A stretch of DNA of 33,834 nucleotides from Acidobacteriota bacterium (lineage in GTDB: Bacteria > Acidobacteriota > UBA6911), in the NCBI GenBank assembly GCA_012729555.1, contig JAAYCX010000052.1:1-33834 (forward strand), in the 5' to 3' direction. The translations under genes were made by a program, and so were the position numbers. Of the stretch, positions 7,825 to 32,206 are shown piece after piece. A model generated the notes under the pieces. The model saw only the letters and a program-made list of their open reading frames with translations. It ran no database searches and had not been told where the DNA came from. Each line of letters starts with the position of its first letter. Position 1 is the first letter of the stretch.

Positions 7825-9414
7825 TTATCTTTTGGGGAGGATCCGCACCAGGCGGAAGTTCCCCTGCGTGGCGAGGGGGACGGTGTCGAAGCCGCCCGCC
7901 TCACCGATCTCCCGCGCCCCCTCCGCTTTGGTGACGACCAGGGCTCCCGTACGGCCGGCGACCCCCCGCCGCAGCGCAGCGAGGTCCTTCGGCTCGGCGT
8001 CCACCCGGTATCCCGTGTAGTAGTGCAGGCTGTGGTGAAAGAAGCGGTAGGTCAGGATCGGCTCCTCCCCGCGGCGCAGGGCGAGCGCCTCGCGGGCGAT
8101 CGTCCGGGTGGAGTGGTAATCGCCGAGGAGGGGGAAGGCGAAGACGACCACCGCCAGGACCAGCGCCGCGCCTCCGAGCGCCGTCGCCCGGACGGCGCCG
8201 AGGGGGCGGTTCCTCCAGCCGTAATACAGGGCGAAGCCTGCCGGGACCAGGACGGCGAGGGAAATCGCGAGCCCCTCGCGCCAGTGCCCCCCGTAGTCCT
8301 TCTGGAAGAAGACGGGCGCCGCCAGGGCGAGGCAGAGGGCAAGGAGCGCCTCGGCGGTCACGGCGGCGCGCAGCAGCCTCGGCTCCGCCCCCTCCCGGAC
8401 CCAGGGCGCGAGGCGCGCGCCCAGGAGCAGGGCCAGCGGCGGGAGGGAAGGGAGAATGTAGCCCGCGAGCTTCGACCCCGACAGGGAAAAGAAGAGGATG
8501 GGGAAGAGCAGCCAGCAGAGGATGAAGAGGGGGGCGGGGCGCCACCGGCGCCAGCGCCGGAGTTCCTCGAGGGGGCTTGTGCCGGCCAGCGCCACGAGCC
8601 ACCCGCTCCAGGGGAAGAAGAGGGCCAGAAGCACCGGCAGGTAGTAGTAAAAGGGCTGGGCGTGGTGATGGATGTCGGTGACGTAGCGGGCGAAATTGTG
8701 GTTGACGAAAAAGGTGGCGACGAAGGCGTAACCATTTTCCCGAAAGGCCAGCCAGAACCAGGGGACCGATACGGCCAGCGCCACCGCTGCCCCCGGACCC
8801 GTGCGCCAGCGCCGGAACATCCCCTCTCTCCCGCCGAAGTACCAGGAGAGGAGCCCTACCCCCGCTGCGAGAACGAGGGCCACCGGCCCCTTGCCCAGCA
8901 CGGCCAGGCCGAGAAAGACCCAGGCGGCCAGCACCTTCCAGCCGAGGTCTTTTTCCACCGCGACGGCCAGGACCGAGAGCGCCAGGGTGAGGCAGCAGGT
9001 AAAGGGCATGTCGGTCGAGGCGCTGCGGCCGAAACCGGCGAAGCCGAGGCTCGTGACCAGGATCGCGCCGCCCAGGAGGCCGGCCAGGGGGGACCAGATC
9101 CGGGTCCCGGCCCAGAGGACGGCCAGGGCGGAGAGGAGGGCGCAAAGGGCGGGTCCGACGCGGGCGGCCGTCTCGGGGCTGCCGAACAGGGAGCCGGGCG
9201 CCCGGGCGATCCAGTAGTAGAGCGGGGGCTTTTCGAGCCACGGCCTCCCCTCGAGCGTCGGGGTGACCCAGCGCCCGGACAGGCGCATCTCCTCTGCGAT
9301 GCGGGCGTAGCGCGGCTCGTCCGCCCCGGTGAGGGGCAACCGGCCGAGGCCGGCCCAGAGGGTGGCTATCGAGAGGGCGGTGACGATGAGGAGGGAGGAG
9401 AGAGCTCGTTGCAC
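7825..9414 (-). CDS. ArnT-like GT39-family glycosyltransferase (integral membrane)
   Basis: A 529-residue polytopic membrane protein with about a dozen hydrophobic helices. The first periplasmic loop carries the family's acidic pair in GADEPRYARIAEEM (Asp32-Glu33), followed by LEGRPWLEKPPLYYW (54-68); both are hallmarks of the PMT/ArnT superfamily, which moves sugars from a polyprenyl-phosphate donor to lipid or protein acceptors. ARYVTDIHHHAQPFYYYLPVL in the middle is also typical. The acceptor cannot be inferred: no lipid A aminoarabinose genes are nearby. It sits between groL and cysS on the same strand, separated from groL by a palindrome. Confidence 0.88.
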   Translation of the reverse strand: MQRALSSLLIVTALSIATLWAGLGRLPLTGADEPRYARIAEEMRLSGRWVTPTLEGRPWLEKPPLYYWIARAPGSLFGSPETAARVGPALCALLSALAVLWAGTRIWSPLAGLLGGAILVTSLGFAGFGRSASTDMPFTCCLTLALSVLAVAVEKDLGWKVLAAWVFLGLAVLGKGPVALVLAAGVGLLSWYFGGREGMFRRWRTGPGAAVALAVSVPWFWLAFRENGYAFVATFFVNHNFARYVTDIHHHAQPFYYYLPVLLALFFPWSGWLVALAGTSPLEELRRWRRWRPAPLFILCWLLFPILFFSLSGSKLAGYILPSLPPLALLLGARLAPWVREGAEPRLLRAAVTAEALLALCLALAAPVFFQKDYGGHWREGLAISLAVLVPAGFALYYGWRNRPLGAVRATALGGAALVLAVVVFAFPLLGDYHSTRTIAREALALRRGEEPILTYRFFHHSLHYYTGYRVDAEPKDLAALRRGVAGRTGALVVTKAEGAREIGEAGGFDTVPLATQGNFRLVRILPKR

Positions 9415-9429
9415 GGGGGGAGTTAAACA

Positions 9430-9467
9430 CGGATGGCACGGATTTTCAAAGCAATCCGTGCCATCCG
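9430..9467. repeat. Long perfect intergenic palindrome between groL and the GT39 gene
   Basis: A 15-bp perfect inverted repeat, arms 9430-9444 and 9453-9467, with an 8-nt loop; flanking TAAAC and GGTTTA nearly extend it. It lies 13 nt past the groL stop codon. On the minus strand it is followed by GTGTTTAACTCC, not a real U-run, so it is not a standard intrinsic terminator, though it could act as an mRNA 3' barrier. It may be a dispersed repeat; only one copy occurs in this window. Confidence 0.75.
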
Positions 9468-9479
9468 CGGTTTACGAGG

Positions 9480-11120
<1,641 letters not shown>

Positions 11121-11150
11121 CTACTCCTTATGTATTTGTATTGCTTTGGG

Positions 11151-11438
11151 TTATGCGAGAACCGCGAGGATTTCGTCTTCCCGCATGATGACGTATTCCT
11201 GGTCGTCGATCTTGATTTCCGTCCCGGAGTACTTTCCGAAGAGGATCCGGTCGCCGGCCTTGACGTCCATGGCCGCGCGCTTGCCGTCATCCATCATCTT
11301 GCCCGGTCCGGCCGCAATCACCTCGCCCTCCATCGGCTTTTCCTTGGCGGTATCGGGGATGATGATACCCCCCTTGACCGTTTCCTTCTCTTCCATCCGC
11401 TTTACCAGAACCCGATCGTGCAAAGGTCTCACATTCAT
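11151..11438 (-). CDS. groS: Co-chaperonin GroES (Hsp10)
   Basis: A 95-residue lid protein for GroEL. It has the family start [14 protein letters not shown], the mobile loop [19 protein letters not shown] (about 17-35), and the roof and core segments [10 protein letters not shown] and [26 protein letters not shown] precedes the ATG. First gene of the heat-shock operon. Confidence 0.98.
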
Positions 11439-11507
11439 CTTGGTGTCTCCTCTCCAAATAGTTGCATTTATAAAGACTTGCCTATTGCTTACCGGCTGGC
11501 CCCGCCG

Positions 11508-11534
11508 TTAGCACTCCCTCGCGGCGAGTGCTAA
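11508..11534 (-). promoter_or_regulatory. CIRCE operator (HrcA binding site)
   Basis: A perfect consensus: TTAGCACTC (11508-11516), exactly 9 nt, GAGTGCTAA (11526-11534). It begins one base past the -10 hexamer of the groES promoter, so bound HrcA would block initiation. The hrcA gene is not in the window but must be expected elsewhere in the genome. Confidence 0.97.
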
Positions 11535-11535
11535 C

Positions 11536-11563
11536 AGTATAAGAGGGATTTTCGGCTTGTCAA
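11536..11563 (-). promoter_or_regulatory. Vegetative promoter of groESL
   Basis: On the minus strand a perfect TTGACA (11558-11563), a 16-nt spacer and TATACT (11536-11541). The CIRCE element lies immediately downstream and covers the start site. Confidence 0.9.
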
Positions 11564-11648
11564 TCTGGAGGCCGGAATTATGTGCCCATTCCAAAAAAAA
11601 ACATAGGCGGGACCCGGCACGGCCGAACTGGCACGGCGAATTTGGTGA

Positions 11649-11682
11649 TATAATACGTATGTCTGTTAAACATAATATACGT
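11649..11682 (+). promoter_or_regulatory. Possible promoter and operator of the second toxin-antitoxin module
   Basis: TATAAT at 11649-11654 is followed by an inverted repeat ACGTAT (11655-11660) / ATACGT (11677-11682) with 16 nt between the arms, just before the antitoxin gene. This AT-rich patch stands out from GC-rich surroundings and could be where the antitoxin represses its own operon. No convincing -35 is seen. Confidence 0.35.
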
Positions 11683-11698
11683 GCAGCGGGTGAAGGAG

Positions 11699-11947
11699 AT
11701 GGCGGTCAAACTAACACTGGCCCTGGACGAGGCGGTGATCCAAAAAGCCAAGCGATATGCCAGCAGACAGAACATCAGCCTTTCAAAGCTGGTGGAGTTC
11801 TACTTCTCGTCGCTCGCCTCCGACGACGTATCCGGCCGGCACGGCATGCCCCCGATCACCGCCGGGCTCGCCGGCATGGTGAGGGTGGAGGCACCGGGGG
11901 AAGACATGGACCTGGTGGCTGAATCGGTCAGCGAAAAATATCTATGA
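11699..11947 (+). CDS. Antitoxin, DUF6364-like ribbon-helix-helix type
   Basis: An 82-residue protein. MAVKLTLALDEAVIQKAKRYASRQNISLSKLVEFYFSSL-type sequence gives one beta strand and two helices, the ribbon-helix-helix layout of DUF6364-like antitoxins (recognition by eye). The rest is acidic and probably binds the toxin. Its stop overlaps the toxin start by four bases (ATGA). The start is uncertain: ATG 11699 gives the family-like N terminus but AAGGAG abuts it directly; GTG at 11690 or 11681 would add three or six residues. Confidence 0.75.
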   Translation: MAVKLTLALDEAVIQKAKRYASRQNISLSKLVEFYFSSLASDDVSGRHGMPPITAGLAGMVRVEAPGEDMDLVAESVSEKYL

Positions 11948-12384
11948 AGGCGCGGATATTCATCGACACCGACGTTTTTCTGGACACCATTCTCGACCGG
12001 AAGCCGCATGCGGTTTACTCAAACCGGATTCTGGCCCTGTGCGAGCAAAACCAGGTCGAGGGATTCACCTCGAGCCTCGTCATCGCCAACATCTACTATA
12101 TCCTCAAAAAGCTGTCGAAACACGAGAGGGCGCTCCTGGCCATCCAGCGGATCGGTTCCATCATCCGGATCCTGCCCTTCACCCAACGAGAAATCGGGGA
12201 ATCCGCGAGCGCCGGTTTTCCCGACTTCGAGGACGGGGTCGAGCATTTCATCGCGGTCAATAACGGCCTGGACAGCATCATCACACGCAATGTCCGGGAT
12301 TTCCGCAAGGCCTCCCTGGGCGTGCTCACGCCGCGGGAATTCCTGCAGTCATTCGTGTGTCGCGACGGGGAGGGGCAAACTTAA
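11944..12384 (+). CDS. PIN-domain toxin of the second module
   Basis: A 146-residue PIN-domain protein. IFIDTDVFLDTILDRKPH carries Asp8, Asp10 and Asp14. FTSSLVIANIYYILKK (41-56) is the usual second helix of this PIN subgroup. GFPDFEDGVEHFIAV has Asp94/Asp97, and IITRNVRDF closes the site with Asp119. It is presumably an RNase held inactive by the overlapping upstream antitoxin. It differs in sequence and subgroup from the VapC at 5029-5451. The stop codon runs into the first Pho-box-like repeat of the pst operon. Confidence 0.85.
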   Translation: MKARIFIDTDVFLDTILDRKPHAVYSNRILALCEQNQVEGFTSSLVIANIYYILKKLSKHERALLAIQRIGSIIRILPFTQREIGESASAGFPDFEDGVEHFIAVNNGLDSIITRNVRDFRKASLGVLTPREFLQSFVCRDGEGQT

Positions 12385-12434
12385 CCGAATCTTAACACTC
12401 TCCTTATAAAGGCTTAACGAAGGTAATGTAAATA
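12381..12434 (+). promoter_or_regulatory. Pho box (four 11-bp-phased repeats) and -10 region of the pst operon
   Basis: TTAACC (12381), TTAACA (12392), CTTATA (12403) and TTAACG (12414) start exactly 11 bp apart. PhoB/PhoP-type regulators bind such 11-bp direct repeats; TTAACA-like units are the Bacillus PhoP form. Nine bases after the last repeat is TAAATA (12429-12434), a plausible -10 with no separate -35, as expected for an activated promoter. The PhoB-like regulator encoded in this operon is the natural candidate to bind it. Confidence 0.7.
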
Positions 12435-12462
12435 TCTACCAGAATTGAGTTTAGGAGGGCAG

Positions 12463-13308
12463 ATGAAGATATCGGGATGGTTGGGTGTGCTGGGAGCGGC
12501 TGTCGCCCTTGCGGGCTGCGGCGGGGGCGGGTCGGCCGCCAGGACGGTCACCATCAAGGGCTCGGACACGATGGTGATCCTGGGGCAGCGGTGGGCCGAG
12601 ACCTACATGAAGGAGCACCCGGAGGAGCGGATCCAGGTCACGGGGGGCGGGTCGGGGACGGGGATCGCCGCCCTGATCAACGGCGGGACCGACATCTGCG
12701 AGGCCTCCCGCCCCATGAAGGAGAAGGAAAAGGAGATGGTGCGCAAGCGCCACGGTCGGGAGGTGGTCGAGATCCCGGTGGCCCTGGACGGCATCGCGAT
12801 CTATGTCCCCGAGTCCTCGCCGGTGGAGGCGCTGACCCTGGGGCAGCTGAAGGCGATCTACACCGGCAGGATCCGCAACTGGAGCGAGGTGGGGGGCCCC
12901 GACCGCAGGATCGTCGTCTACAGCCGCGAGAACAACTCCGGCACCTACGTCTTCTTCAAGGAGCACGTGCTCGATAACGAGGACTTCGGGCGGGAGGTCC
13001 AGACGCTCCCCGGCACCGCCGCCGTGGTCAACGCCGTCAGCAAGGACCCCGCCTCGATCGGCTACGGCGGGATCGCCTACGCCTCGGGAATCCGGCCCGT
13101 CGCCGTCAAGGCGGACGAGGCGGCCGGCGGGGTGCTCCCCTCGATCGAAACGGTGGAGCGGGGGACCTATCCCCTGTCGCGCCAGCTCTTCTTCTACACG
13201 GTCGGCGCCCCGCAGGGGACCACCAAACAGTTCATCGACTGGGTGCTGACGCCGGAGGGGCAGGAAATCTGCGAAAAGGTGGGGTACTACCCCCTGGTCT
13301 GGAAATAG
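12463..13308 (+). CDS. pstS: Phosphate-binding lipoprotein PstS
   Basis: A 281-residue periplasmic phosphate receptor. The signal peptide ends in lipobox LAGC with Cys19 as the lipidation site, followed by a Gly-rich linker. Phosphate-binding loops are IKGSDTM (31-37), GGGSGTG (61-67) and the later SRENNSGTYVFF segment. AGGAGGG (12453-12459) fixes the ATG; an in-frame GTG/TTG-type extension upstream lacks support. First gene of pstS-pstC-pstA-pstB1-pstB2-phoU-phoB, directly behind the Pho box. Confidence 0.94.
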   Translation: MKISGWLGVLGAAVALAGCGGGGSAARTVTIKGSDTMVILGQRWAETYMKEHPEERIQVTGGGSGTGIAALINGGTDICEASRPMKEKEKEMVRKRHGREVVEIPVALDGIAIYVPESSPVEALTLGQLKAIYTGRIRNWSEVGGPDRRIVVYSRENNSGTYVFFKEHVLDNEDFGREVQTLPGTAAVVNAVSKDPASIGYGGIAYASGIRPVAVKADEAAGGVLPSIETVERGTYPLSRQLFFYTVGAPQGTTKQFIDWVLTPEGQEICEKVGYYPLVWK

Positions 13309-27432: not shown

Positions 27433-28071
27433 TTATTTGAGTAACTGGCTACCATATGTTGAGTTTAGGGAGGTTTTCCGTCGGGCCCCCCGGCCGAGGG
27501 TGCGCAAGTCCCCGGGAGTATTGATATTAGCCAGGTCGGAGTCGAAAAACGGGCCCTGGTCGGGCGTCACCCAGCGGATGCGCAGGGGGCCGTCGAGGAA
27601 GGTGGCGATCACCTTCCGGGCGCCGCGCTCGAGGGCCTCTTCGATCCTCGGCAGGCAGCTCCTCCGGTAGACGGCGCACAGCGGGTGGGCCAGCCCCCCC
27701 TCCGAACGGGGGATGGCGGCGTCGTACCCTTCGGCGAGGCGGACGAGATTTTCGAGCAGCCGGGTGGGCACGCTCGGCAGGTCGCAGGCCAGGACGAGGT
27801 AGAGGGTGGCTTCCTCGTGATGCATGGCGGCGTGAACCCCCGCCAGCGGGCCGTGATCCCTGTAGCGGTCGGGGACGACGGGGAACCCGAGGAAGCGGTA
27901 GGCGTCCTCCTCGTCGGCCGAGACCAGGATGCGGCGGGTCAGGGGGAGCACCCGATCGATCACGATCCGGATCAGGCTGCGTCCGTCGACCGTGACCAGC
28001 GCCTTGTTGCTCCCCATCCGGCGGCTCTTCCCGCCGGCCAGGATGACGGCGCACAGATCCTCGTTAGCCAT
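27433..28071 (-). CDS. mobA: Molybdenum cofactor guanylyltransferase MobA
   Basis: A 212-residue nucleotidyltransferase that adds GMP to molybdopterin. CAVILAGGKSRRMGSNKAL (7-25) is the GTP-binding signature with the G-G-x-S-R-R-M-G loop. DHGPLAGVHAAM and LVLACDLPSVP (with the metal-binding Asp) follow. The C-terminal half has ANINTPGDL, common in this fold. No other molybdenum cofactor genes are nearby. The start is chosen at ATG 28071, just before the conserved strand; in-frame ATGs at 28080 and 28083 are possible, and a longer frame into the divergent gene is unlikely. Confidence 0.9.
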   Translation of the reverse strand: MANEDLCAVILAGGKSRRMGSNKALVTVDGRSLIRIVIDRVLPLTRRILVSADEEDAYRFLGFPVVPDRYRDHGPLAGVHAAMHHEEATLYLVLACDLPSVPTRLLENLVRLAEGYDAAIPRSEGGLAHPLCAVYRRSCLPRIEEALERGARKVIATFLDGPLRIRWVTPDQGPFFDSDLANINTPGDLRTLGRGARRKTSLNSTYGSQLLK

Positions 28072-28175
28072 GGATCCCATCATCGGGCCCCGGCCGTTGT
28101 TCGTCAACCGCAATGTGTCATTCGCCCTCACCCCGGGGCATTCTGTTATATACTGGCCGGGAAAGGTCGGGACAG

Positions 28176-29987
28176 ATGACAACACGTTCGCTCTGGCTTG
28201 CCGCGGCGCTTTCGGCCCTCGCGGCGCTCCCCTATTCCGGGTCGGCGGCGGCCCCGGATTTCTTCCGGATCGAGGACCTCCGCCCCGGACTCAGGGGGAC
28301 CGGCAGGACCTGTTTCCAGGGGACCCGGCCCGAGGAGTTCCAGGTGGAAATCCTCGGGGTGATGCGCGGGGTGTCGCCGGGCGCCGATTCGGTGCTGGCC
28401 CGCTTCAGCGGCGGGCGGATCGACAGGTACGGCATCTTCGAGGGGATGAGCGGCAGCCCCGTCTACATCGACGGGAAGCTCCTCGGCGCCGTCGCTTACT
28501 CCTACGCCTTCGCCCGGGAGCCGATCGCGGGGATCACGCCCATCGCCCACATGGTGGACGCCTTCGAGGAAAAGGGCGGGGGCCTTCGCCTGGAAAAAGG
28601 GGGAATACGGGACGGCATGCTTCCGCTCCCCGCCGTAGGCGGGGGAGGGCTCGAATTCCCCATCCTGCCGGGAGGGGGCGCCGCCCCGGGCGCGCGGGAC
28701 GCGCATTCTTTGCTCCCCATCGCCACTCCCCTCTCCCTGGGGGGCTTTCATCCCGGGACTCTGGAGGCTTTCGCCCCCCGCTTCCGTGCCGCGGGGATGA
28801 CGCTGCTGCAGGGATCCGGAGCCGCATCCGGCGACCCGCCGGGGGACCAGCCCCCGTTCGAGCCCGGCTCCAACATCGTGGTTTCGCTCGTGGAGGGGGA
28901 CCTGGATGTCTCCGCCGGGGGCACGGTGACCTATGTGGACGGGGACCGACTCTATGCCTTCGGGCACAACCTCCTGGAACTGGGGAACACGGAGCTCCCG
29001 ATGCGCCGGGCCAGCGCCGTGACCATCTTCCCCAGTTTCGAGAGCTCCTTCAAGATCCTGGCCGCGGGCGGCGTCGCGGGCGCGATCCGCCAGGACCGGG
29101 GCATGGGCATCTACGGCATCGTGGGGGACCGGGCGCGCACGGTGCCGGTGCGGATCGGGCTCCTCTCCAGCCGCGGCGCGCGGAAGGAATACCGGTTCGA
29201 GCTGGCGCGGGACTCCATGCTGACGCCGGTCCTGCTCAATATGACGGTCTACAACACCATCACCGCGTCCGAGCGCGCCCAGGGGGGGGCCACGATCGGG
29301 GTCACGGGGAAGATCGGCATCGGAAACCAGCCCGAGGTCCGGGTCGCCGGACGCTTCTCCTCACGGAGCGAAGCGGTGCAGAACGCCGCGCTTTCGGTCG
29401 CCGTGCCTGTCAACTACCTGATGGAAGCCGGATACCCGGACCTGGACCTCGAGCGGATCGACCTGGAGATTTCGGTCCTGGAAAAGGACCGGAGCGCCCG
29501 GCTCGACTCGATCCGGGTGGATCGCCGGGAGGTGCGGGCGGGGGATTCGGTCGAGCTGACGATGACGGCTCAGCGGCCAGACGGGGAGATCCTCCGGGAG
29601 GTTCGCACCGTGCGGATCCCGGCGACCGCCTCCCCCGGCCCGCTCACCCTGACCCTGGCCGACGGGTCGGCCCTGACGACGCTGGAACAGCAACAGGAGG
29701 GGGGCGCCCTGACACCGCGCGACCTGGGTCAGCTGATCGGGTTCCTCAACCGGATGCGCCGGAACGACCGTCTCTATCTGCGCTTTTCGCGGCGCGAGCC
29801 GGGGGTGGTGATGCGAGGGGAGGGGATGCCGGGCCTCCCCCCGTCGATCCTTTCGGTGCTCCAATCGGAGCGGAAATCGGGGGCCCTGACCGCAATCCGC
29901 ACCTCCACCATCGCGGAATACGAACTTCCCGCGTCCGATGACGTCATCGCCGGCTCCCGGTCGGTGGCGATCGAGATCAAGCCCTGA
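28176..29987 (+). CDS. Exported SpoIVB-like (peptidase S55) protein with reversed motif order
   Basis: A 603-residue exported protein. A signal peptide (about 1-26) precedes EEFQVEILGVMRGVSPGADSVL and IFEGMSGSPVYIDGKLLGAVAYSY (88-110), the S55 serine motif with Ser92 as likely nucleophile. About 170 residues later comes GGTVTYVDGDRLYAFGHNLLELGNTELPM (248-276) with His264, resembling the SpoIVB histidine motif. In SpoIVB the histidine comes first, so this is an apparent rearrangement. A Gly/Pro-rich linker (150-230) separates the two, and a beta-rich tail of about 200 residues follows. ATG 28176 is supported by the signal peptide and GGTCGGGAC. The next gene starts 14 nt on. Confidence 0.82.
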   Translation: MTTRSLWLAAALSALAALPYSGSAAAPDFFRIEDLRPGLRGTGRTCFQGTRPEEFQVEILGVMRGVSPGADSVLARFSGGRIDRYGIFEGMSGSPVYIDGKLLGAVAYSYAFAREPIAGITPIAHMVDAFEEKGGGLRLEKGGIRDGMLPLPAVGGGGLEFPILPGGGAAPGARDAHSLLPIATPLSLGGFHPGTLEAFAPRFRAAGMTLLQGSGAASGDPPGDQPPFEPGSNIVVSLVEGDLDVSAGGTVTYVDGDRLYAFGHNLLELGNTELPMRRASAVTIFPSFESSFKILAAGGVAGAIRQDRGMGIYGIVGDRARTVPVRIGLLSSRGARKEYRFELARDSMLTPVLLNMTVYNTITASERAQGGATIGVTGKIGIGNQPEVRVAGRFSSRSEAVQNAALSVAVPVNYLMEAGYPDLDLERIDLEISVLEKDRSARLDSIRVDRREVRAGDSVELTMTAQRPDGEILREVRTVRIPATASPGPLTLTLADGSALTTLEQQQEGGALTPRDLGQLIGFLNRMRRNDRLYLRFSRREPGVVMRGEGMPGLPPSILSVLQSERKSGALTAIRTSTIAEYELPASDDVIAGSRSVAIEIKP

Positions 29988-30001: not shown

Positions 30002-32206
30002 ATGCATATGAGGAAAACCACCCTGCCGGCCGCCTTTCTGGCCCTTTCGATCGCCTCCTGGGCCGCCATGCCCCGGTTCTGGGAGAACTTCACCCGGGAG
30101 GAGCTGCTCCAGGGGAGTTTCAGCGGCGTTTCCCTCGGCCCGGAAGGGGCGCTGTCGCTCGCACCCCCCCTCGACCTCTGGTTCGACACCGGCCAGGAAT
30201 ATATCTTTTCCATGGTCCGCGACCGGGCGGGCAACCTCTACGTCGGAACGGGGACGGAAGGGAAGGTGTACAGGATCGACCCCGAAGGGAAGGGGAGCCT
30301 GTATTTCGATTCCGGAGAACTCCACGTCTTCGCTCTGGCGCTCGATTCCTCCGATACCCTGTACGCCGCGACCTCTCCCGACGGGAAGGTCTACCGCCTG
30401 GGCGCGGCGAACGACCCCCGGGAATTCTGCGACCCGGAAGAAAAGTACATATGGGCGATGGCGTTCGACCCGGAGGACAACCTCTACCTCGGGACCGGGG
30501 CCGGCGGCGCCATTTACAGGGTGGACAGGGCGGGGGAGGCGTCCCTCTTTTACGCCTCCGGCGACAGCCACGTCCGCTGCCTCGTGATCGAGGGGAAGAA
30601 CCTGCTGGCGGGGACCGCGCCCGACGGGCGGGTGCTCCGCGTGGACGGGCGCGGGAGGGGGTTCGCCCTGGCAGACACCCCCTACGAGGAGGTGCACGCG
30701 CTCGCCCTGGACCGGTTCGGCACCCTCTACGCCGTGGCCTCCTCCCCGAAGGCGCCCGGGGCCCCCGCCGGGACCGCCCCCGCCGGGGAGGGGGACCCGA
30801 AGGTCTCGACGACGGTGACCGTCGTGGCGACTGTGAGCGCGGCGGGCTCCACGGCGGGTGGGGCGGGGCAGGCGGCCGGCCCCCCCCCTGCAGAGACCCC
30901 GACGGGGAAGGAGTCCGCGGCCACGGCCGTCTATGCCATCGCGCCCGAAGGCGCCGTGGAGCTCCTTTACAGCACCGCGGGGGGGATGGCGTTCGATGCC
31001 GCTCCCGGAGCCGACGGGGCCCTCCTGCTTGCCACCGGGCCGAAGGGACGGCTGCTGAAGATCCGCCCCGGCGGCCGCCCGGCGGTGGTCACCGACCTGC
31101 CCGAGGAGGACGCGGTCCGGCTGCTCCGGGCGGGGGACGACGTGTATGTCGGGGCCAGCAACCGGGGAAAGGTCTACCGCCTCCGGCAGGGGAGGGCGGC
31201 TTCGGGGGTGTTCGAGTCCGACCCGCTCGATGCCGGGATCGTCTCCTCCTGGGGGAGGATTTCCTGGAACGCGTTCGATGGCGGCCGGGGCGTCACCCTG
31301 GCCACCCGGAGCGGGAACACCCCCCGGCCCGACCCTTCGTGGAGCGACTGGACATCCTATCCGGAGCCCGGCCGGCAGATCGGGAGCCCGCGCGCCCGCT
31401 ACCTGCAGTGGCGGGCCGGCTTCGAGGGGGAAGGGGAAGAAGCCTCCCTGGAAGGGGTGCGGATCTCCTACCTGCAGCAGAACGTGCGGCCGCGCGTCAC
31501 CGAACTCAAGGTCCTGCCTCATGGGCTGGCGCTCGAGAAGCAGCCGTCGCTGGCTGCGAGCGGCATCTACTCCGTCGATGTCGATGACGGGAGGAGCCTC
31601 CTCGCCCCGCGCCGACGGGGGAGGGAGGACCAGCCCCTCCCCCCGCGGCAGGCGCTCGAGGCCGGGGTCCGGTCCTTTACCTGGAAGGCGGAGGACGACA
31701 ACGGGGACCCCCTGCTCTACTCCCTCTACTTCAAGGGGGAGGCGGAATCGGAGTGGAAGCTGCTGGGATCGAACCTCGTCGACACCTTTTACACCCTCGG
31801 CACGGCGTCGCTCCCGGACGGGACCTACCGGTTGAAGGTGGTGGCCAGCGACGAACCGGGCAACAGCTTCGACCGTTTCCTCATCGGGGAGCGGGTGAGC
31901 GCCCCCTTCGTCGTGGCCGGCTCCCCCCCCTCGATCGAGATCCTCTCGCGGTCGGTCGAGGGGCGCAGGGTGGAGGTCCGGTTCCGGGCGGGGGTCTCCG
32001 CCGGAGCCGTTCAGAGCGCGGAGTATTCGATCGACGGGGGCGCCTGGCGCCTCCTTTCCCCCGTCGACGGCATCGCCGACTCCCCTCTCGAGGAGTATCT
32101 CATGGTGACCCCTGAGCTTGCGCCCGGGGAGCACCTGATCGGCATCCGGGCGGGCGATCGCAACGGGACCACCGGGACCGCCGGCTTCGTTCTGGCAGTC
32201 CCCTGA
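30002..32206 (+). CDS. Exported beta-propeller protein with C-terminal beta-sandwich
   Basis: A 734-residue exported protein with signal peptide (about 1-22). The repeat L-Y-v-G-T-x2-x-G-k-v-Y-R-i-D recurs at 79-92, 120-133, 160-173 and 200-214, then near 241, 340 and 375, at about 40-residue spacing, giving about seven blades. A Gly/Ala/Pro/Thr-rich insertion (248-305) interrupts one blade. After residue 430 come sandwich-like domains, including SFTWKAEDDNGDPLLYSLYFKGEAESEWKLL, a fibronectin-like strand pattern. Function is unknown; such proteins usually bind ligands or partners at the cell surface. GAGG at 29991 supports the ATG. It is probably co-transcribed with the S55 gene. Confidence 0.8.
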   Translation: MHMRKTTLPAAFLALSIASWAAMPRFWENFTREELLQGSFSGVSLGPEGALSLAPPLDLWFDTGQEYIFSMVRDRAGNLYVGTGTEGKVYRIDPEGKGSLYFDSGELHVFALALDSSDTLYAATSPDGKVYRLGAANDPREFCDPEEKYIWAMAFDPEDNLYLGTGAGGAIYRVDRAGEASLFYASGDSHVRCLVIEGKNLLAGTAPDGRVLRVDGRGRGFALADTPYEEVHALALDRFGTLYAVASSPKAPGAPAGTAPAGEGDPKVSTTVTVVATVSAAGSTAGGAGQAAGPPPAETPTGKESAATAVYAIAPEGAVELLYSTAGGMAFDAAPGADGALLLATGPKGRLLKIRPGGRPAVVTDLPEEDAVRLLRAGDDVYVGASNRGKVYRLRQGRAASGVFESDPLDAGIVSSWGRISWNAFDGGRGVTLATRSGNTPRPDPSWSDWTSYPEPGRQIGSPRARYLQWRAGFEGEGEEASLEGVRISYLQQNVRPRVTELKVLPHGLALEKQPSLAASGIYSVDVDDGRSLLAPRRRGREDQPLPPRQALEAGVRSFTWKAEDDNGDPLLYSLYFKGEAESEWKLLGSNLVDTFYTLGTASLPDGTYRLKVVASDEPGNSFDRFLIGERVSAPFVVAGSPPSIEILSRSVEGRRVEVRFRAGVSAGAVQSAEYSIDGGAWRLLSPVDGIADSPLEEYLMVTPELAPGEHLIGIRAGDRNGTTGTAGFVLAVP

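Follow-up and report, generated by a model that had tools for sequence, protein, structure and literature searches.

The protein encoded at positions 28176-29987 (forward strand) of the window, the whole 33,834-nucleotide stretch of Acidobacteriota DNA that was analysed, is a circularly permuted relative of the S55 serine peptidases and not a SpoIVB orthologue. With a probability close to 0.8, we consider it to be a secreted or periplasmic, active, S55-like serine protease with a beta-propeller partner. Somewhat more cautiously, we also regard it as probable that across the phylum the chymotrypsin fold has undergone a natural circular permutation: the catalytic residues follow the order Ser-His-Asp, an Asp takes the place of a SpoIVB Asn, and the protease forms a two-gene system with an exported propeller. 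The frame translates into 603 residues with no internal stop, and in the product the S55 serine motif GMSGSP (Ser92) precedes the histidine motif GH (His264). The initial annotation had placed GMSGSPVYIDGK at residues 90-101 and FGHNLLELGN at residues 262-271, and both were found there in the translation of 28176-29987. The relevant features are the following.

28176-29987, forward strand: gene of the permuted S55-like protein; open frame of 603 residues plus stop, PF05580 match over the cut-off.
28176-28250, forward strand: probable Sec signal peptide, residues 1-25, no lipobox Cys; hydrophobic stretch, AAA, modelled helix at residues 4-15.
28257-28586, forward strand: serine half, residues 28-137, counterpart of SpoIVB 313-426 by hhalign and VIA-align.
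28443-28460, forward strand: GMSGSP motif, residues 90-95; invariant, aligns to SpoIVB Ser378.
28449-28451, forward strand: Ser92 codon, predicted nucleophile, in the GMSGSP motif.
28587-28703, forward strand: linker, residues 138-176, Gly/Pro-rich in this protein; low pLDDT, variable among members.
28704-28811, forward strand: small beta-alpha-beta element, residues 177-212, ahead of the histidine barrel; secondary structure of both models.
28857-29135, forward strand: histidine half, residues 228-320, counterpart of SpoIVB about 209-300; hhalign, shuffles, model of residues 177-346.
28965-28967, forward strand: His264 codon, predicted general base; 61/61 members, aligns to SpoIVB His236.
29094-29096, forward strand: Asp307 codon, predicted third triad residue; Asp in 61/61, aligned to SpoIVB Asn290.
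29136-29984, forward strand: C-terminal region, residues 321-603, beta-beta-alpha units and then an Ig-like part; AlphaFold2 secondary structure.
30002-32206, forward strand: exported beta-propeller gene, conserved partner downstream; Reg_prop match and linkage.

The signal peptide was called by direct reading of the sequence, together with the helix at residues 4-15 of the model, and suggests that the protein is exported. On the minus strand, the longest frame of a mobA-like gene (27433-28185) overlaps the start of the protease gene by ten bases (28176-28185); the true start of the mobA-like gene probably lies further inside this frame.

The order that the initial annotation gave for SpoIVB, histidine motif before serine motif, holds in the structure 9lnf and in 12 other canonical sequences. 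This set of 13 comprised the 9lnf chain, nine sequences from phage-collection records (faecal metagenomes) and three from plasmid records, and all of them read PDZ domain, GTxT...GH, GMSGSP, with minor motif variants. In 9lnf, which is B. subtilis SpoIVB, His236 of the GH motif stands ahead of Ser378 of GMSGSP. The nine phage-labelled records are UNVERIFIED 'Bacteriophage sp.' entries from human faecal samples (L115-L123; MT83xxxx), and because they encode canonical SpoIVB they may be mislabelled bacterial contigs. Scans of viral contigs with SpoIVB and the permuted family as queries gave no matches, and a plasmid scan found canonical SpoIVB alone.

Standard domain annotation detects one half of the protein. 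PF05580 matched with 29.1 bits (cut-off 25), aligning residues 46-119 to positions 128-201 of its 210, so that it reaches the serine half only and does not run through the whole domain in the His-then-Ser order of the profile. It matched 61/61 family members at E 0.01, and no other Pfam family matched more than a single member; PDZ_2 gave one weak match among the 61. The SpoIVB equivalog TIGR02860 scored 24.7 bits, again in the serine half only, which is far below its cut-off of 305.25. Since the serine half alone is detected, annotation by PF05580 hides the rearrangement.

Comparison of profiles recovers both halves. When the canonical protease domain was compared by hhalign with the alignment of the 61 family members, the canonical serine half fell on residues 31-110 (E 1e-13) and its histidine counterpart on residues 245-320/345 (score 46.8-47.5, E 7e-7 to 1.7e-6), in swapped order relative to the normal S55 domain. 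The initial annotation had claimed that the segments around both motifs match the SpoIVB halves, and these profile matches bear it out. For the histidine half, 100 column shuffles scored at most 20.8 and the reversed profile 18.9; the canonical segments 209-250 and 278-305 each aligned at the expected site, and inside this half the motifs GTxTxxD...GH and Gx[IV]xx[ND]xxxGI[YF]G keep their canonical order. Profiles were used here because single-sequence HMM scores are weak: the window protein scored 4.6 bits, with decoys up to 8.2. Against PDB sequences, the family profile had one match, SpoIVB 9lnf, through the serine half, and the histidine-half profile had no significant match; CylK, at E 0.45, was judged a chance hit.

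The half-swap check proposed in the initial annotation joined both halves into an unbroken match with the canonical S55 domain. When residues 228-320 were moved ahead of residues 28-137 in the family profile, the alignment covered columns 11-192 with a score of 130.5 (E 3.4e-20), whereas the native order aligned the serine half only (columns 112-192, score about 95-100). The 60 controls with shuffled histidine columns reached at most 99.3, and the 29 that used segments from elsewhere in the protein at most 98.8, so that the gain from swapping over the best control is 31 score units. With the single sequence of the window protein the gain was small (30.9 bits versus 27.1-28.5 in controls), and the swap evidence is for this reason a property of the profile. 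By profile comparison, shuffles and swap together, both halves of the protein are homologous to those of S55, regardless of their order, and the reading of a circularly permuted domain is supported. The rearrangement cuts the chain between the two barrels, in the variable linker that joins them.

The AlphaFold2 model of the full-length protein, built with 61 sequences, had a pLDDT of 86.4 and a pTM of 0.86; the packing of the two halves that would bring Ser92 and His264 together is read from the latter value. The linker was modelled mostly below pLDDT 60 (residues 132-176) and below 50 at 134-149, 155-157 and 163-174, and it differs in length and sequence among the 61 members. It is the new junction where the old ends meet, as had been proposed for a Gly/Pro-rich linker at the old termini; the window sequence is indeed rich in Gly and Pro there. 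In VIA-align, residues 26-138 matched the C-terminal barrel of DegQ, Rv3671c, Rv0983 and SpoIVB. The serine half gave Z 6.0 against 9lnf 313-426 (107 residues, 3.5 A) and Z 6.8 against DegQ 127-243, values (6.0-6.8) which are modest and tied among DegQ, Rv3671c and SpoIVB. A separate model of the histidine region 177-346 (pLDDT 81.8) gave 50 listed matches, nearly all to trypsin-fold proteins (Z 4.4-6.3), with 9lnf absent among these 50; the matches span almost whole target chains and fit either of the two pseudo-symmetric barrels. Each half thus resembles trypsin-fold proteases with Z below 7, two six-stranded barrels being expected for the PA clan. With an E-value limit of 0.001, Foldseek matched neither the full-length model nor the histidine half alone to any structure. 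In the full model the strands of the histidine half are 233-241, 244-255, 258-261, 270-285, 291-308 and 311-316, by which His264 comes directly behind strand 3 and Asp307 sits at the end of barrel strand 5; His57 and Asp102 of chymotrypsin occupy these same barrel places.

The beta-alpha-beta element (residues 177-212) stands where SpoIVB carries its PDZ domain. A PDZ relic was sought in the linker with the canonical PDZ profile, without a significant match. If the permutation had arisen by tandem duplication, the element at 28704-28811 is the site where the PDZ domain would have been left. Further along the chain, strand-strand-helix units are predicted twice in residues 321-438 (29136-29530), at 322-365 and 372-417, and the model suggests that this part is internally repeated; Glu366 is invariant. 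Residues 440-603 gave weak VIA-align matches (Z 4-5) to Ig-like domains, for example C3 MG and CGTase.

Could the protein be a lone N-terminal serine barrel, half of an S55 domain, fused to an unrelated domain with a chance GH motif? PF05580 and single-sequence searches recognise the serine half only, and the histidine region lacks a significant PDB sequence match, as this reading would predict. It is nevertheless very improbable in our view, given that the histidine-half profile match (E 1.7e-6) lies far above its shuffles, the swapped alignment exceeds its best control by 31 score units, the histidine region alone models as a trypsin-type barrel, and both of its motifs stand inside it in canonical order. 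An independent permutation in another trypsin-fold family of HtrA type, without derivation from S55, seems to us if anything still more improbable. The serine-barrel fold is equally near to DegQ, Rv3671c and SpoIVB (Z 6.0-6.8, tied), which would suit such an origin, but SpoIVB is the only sequence match among all PDB chains, PF05580 is the only Pfam family shared by several of the 61 members, and GMSGSP and GTxT...GH are S55 signatures.

A permuted S55 domain would have its active site assembled from both barrels, and the relevant positions are strictly conserved: Ser92, His264, Asp307 and Arg308 are invariant in 61/61 members, and GMSGSP with Ser92 is invariant in 61/61 and 30/30 members. Ser92 corresponds to SpoIVB Ser378 and His264 to SpoIVB His236, the catalytic Ser and His of S55. 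Within Gx[IV]xx[N/D]xxxG[IV][YF]G, a gap-free alignment sets Asp307 opposite SpoIVB Asn290, a position held by Asn in 12/13 canonical sequences. The position of SpoIVB Thr393 is Thr in 13/13 canonical sequences, and in the permuted family, where it is Ala (46) or Ser (15) among the 61 members, that Thr is not kept. The sequence conservation points to a Ser92-His264-Asp307 triad and to a catalytically active protein. The SpoIVB structure paper describes His236 and Ser378, makes no confident assignment of the third triad residue, and suggests Thr393 (PMC12502668). Our comparison bears on this question and points to Asn290 over Thr393; we put forward the hypothesis that Asn290 may complete the SpoIVB triad.

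The same residues bear on whether catalysis has been lost, leaving a permuted S55-like fold that serves as an exported scaffold or binding protein and keeps its motifs for structure. The Ala or Ser at the Thr393 place would be in keeping with such a loss, and the large C-terminal Ig-like regions and the propeller partner would fit a scaffold. Pseudoenzymes, however, usually lose at least one catalytic residue, whereas Ser92, His264 and Asp307 are invariant across 61 diverse members, and Asp307 offers a standard third residue. We therefore judge this explanation unlikely, though less so than the two discussed above, and favour an active permuted protease. Such an enzyme would fold like SpoIVB (MEROPS S55) into two barrels of chymotrypsin type, with the barrels encoded in reverse order: a serine barrel, a flexible linker, the histidine barrel and then the extra C-terminal domains. 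The barrels would pack as in SpoIVB and join Ser92 (nucleophile), His264 (base) and Asp307 (acid), and since the three residues would meet in this way, the chemistry could be ordinary despite the Ser-His-Asp order of the chain.

The initial annotation had seen an unusual rearranged fold in one protein. The rearrangement stands by profiles and swap test, but it is not peculiar to this protein and holds across the Acidobacteriota. A relative was found in 139/149 sampled genomes of the phylum, mostly in single copy, with the permuted order in every relative examined, and canonical-order S55 was not seen among these genomes. PF05580 matched 179/199 genomes of the phylum, and the matches, among those listed, always start at profile position at least 94. 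When 84,980 species were scanned, the best 80 loci were essentially all from Acidobacteriota. An assembly artefact was excluded, because the order is identical in every relative examined, including single-contig genomes and dozens of independent assemblies. Because His generally precedes Ser in the trypsin fold, SpoIVB included, we take the permuted order as derived, and a single origin, early in or before the Acidobacteriota, from a His-Ser ancestor appears likely.

The protein shares with SpoIVB (MEROPS S55, PF05580, TIGR02860; PDB 9lnf; from B. subtilis and other endospore formers) the GMSGSP and GTxTxxD...GH motifs, profile homology of both halves and probably also export; a two-barrel fold is predicted for it as well. 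It differs in the reversed halves, the lack of a detected PDZ domain, about 280 extra C-terminal residues, Asp at the Asn290 place and Ala or Ser at that of Thr393, a score far under the TIGR02860 cut-off, and a propeller gene as neighbour instead of recN or spo0A. The HtrA-type proteases DegQ, DegS, Rv0983 and Rv3671c have a similar serine-barrel fold (Z 5-6.8), but their order is His-Asp-Ser and they show no sequence match to the permuted family. That circular permutation can occur naturally within a superfamily of peptidases reportedly has a precedent in the papain-like peptidases, the subject of a classification paper; these are cysteine peptidases, and their fold is unrelated. In trypsin-fold proteases the linear order His-Asp-Ser counts as a hallmark, and the PA clan order gives way here to Ser92-His264-Asp307. 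Clans group enzymes by fold and/or by catalytic-residue order (PMC3434108). If our reading is true, this lineage-wide barrel swap would show the catalytic order not to be fixed and a cut between the barrels to be tolerated. Such a natural circular permutation, in one of the best-known enzyme folds, has apparently not been described before: no permuted S55 or trypsin-fold protease turned up in a literature search, which is weak evidence, as subscription papers were mostly outside its coverage.

The genomic context is not that of sporulation: recN and spo0A are not the neighbours in the window, where the protease gene lies between the mobA-like gene and the gene at 30002-32206 (forward strand), which encodes a probable exported beta-propeller protein with a Reg_prop match. 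Adjacency of protease and propeller is strong. At 80/92 listed S55 loci a co-directional propeller gene follows downstream within 5 kb, and at 74 no more than 300 bases separate the two genes. In the 99 Acidobacteriota genomes common to the protease and propeller searches, the propeller gene is present in 95 and the S55-like gene in 93, and all of these 93 have the propeller (93/93). Among the six genomes without the S55-like gene, four had no propeller match and two a weak match only; since G049 alone is near complete, the other five being 72-87% complete, the evidence from co-absence is thin. Three genomes (G019, G071, G092) carry two S55-like copies, each with its own propeller beside it. 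The protease is probably a conserved housekeeping protein which acts together with the propeller of the adjacent gene; the propeller may be its adaptor, its regulator or its substrate. Both genes occur, though not as same-strand neighbours, in G007, G009, G013, G025, G038, G051, G063, G075, G084, G086 and G096. On contig C28 of genome G037 (8892-12983) the two genes are convergent, a local exception to the co-directional pairing.
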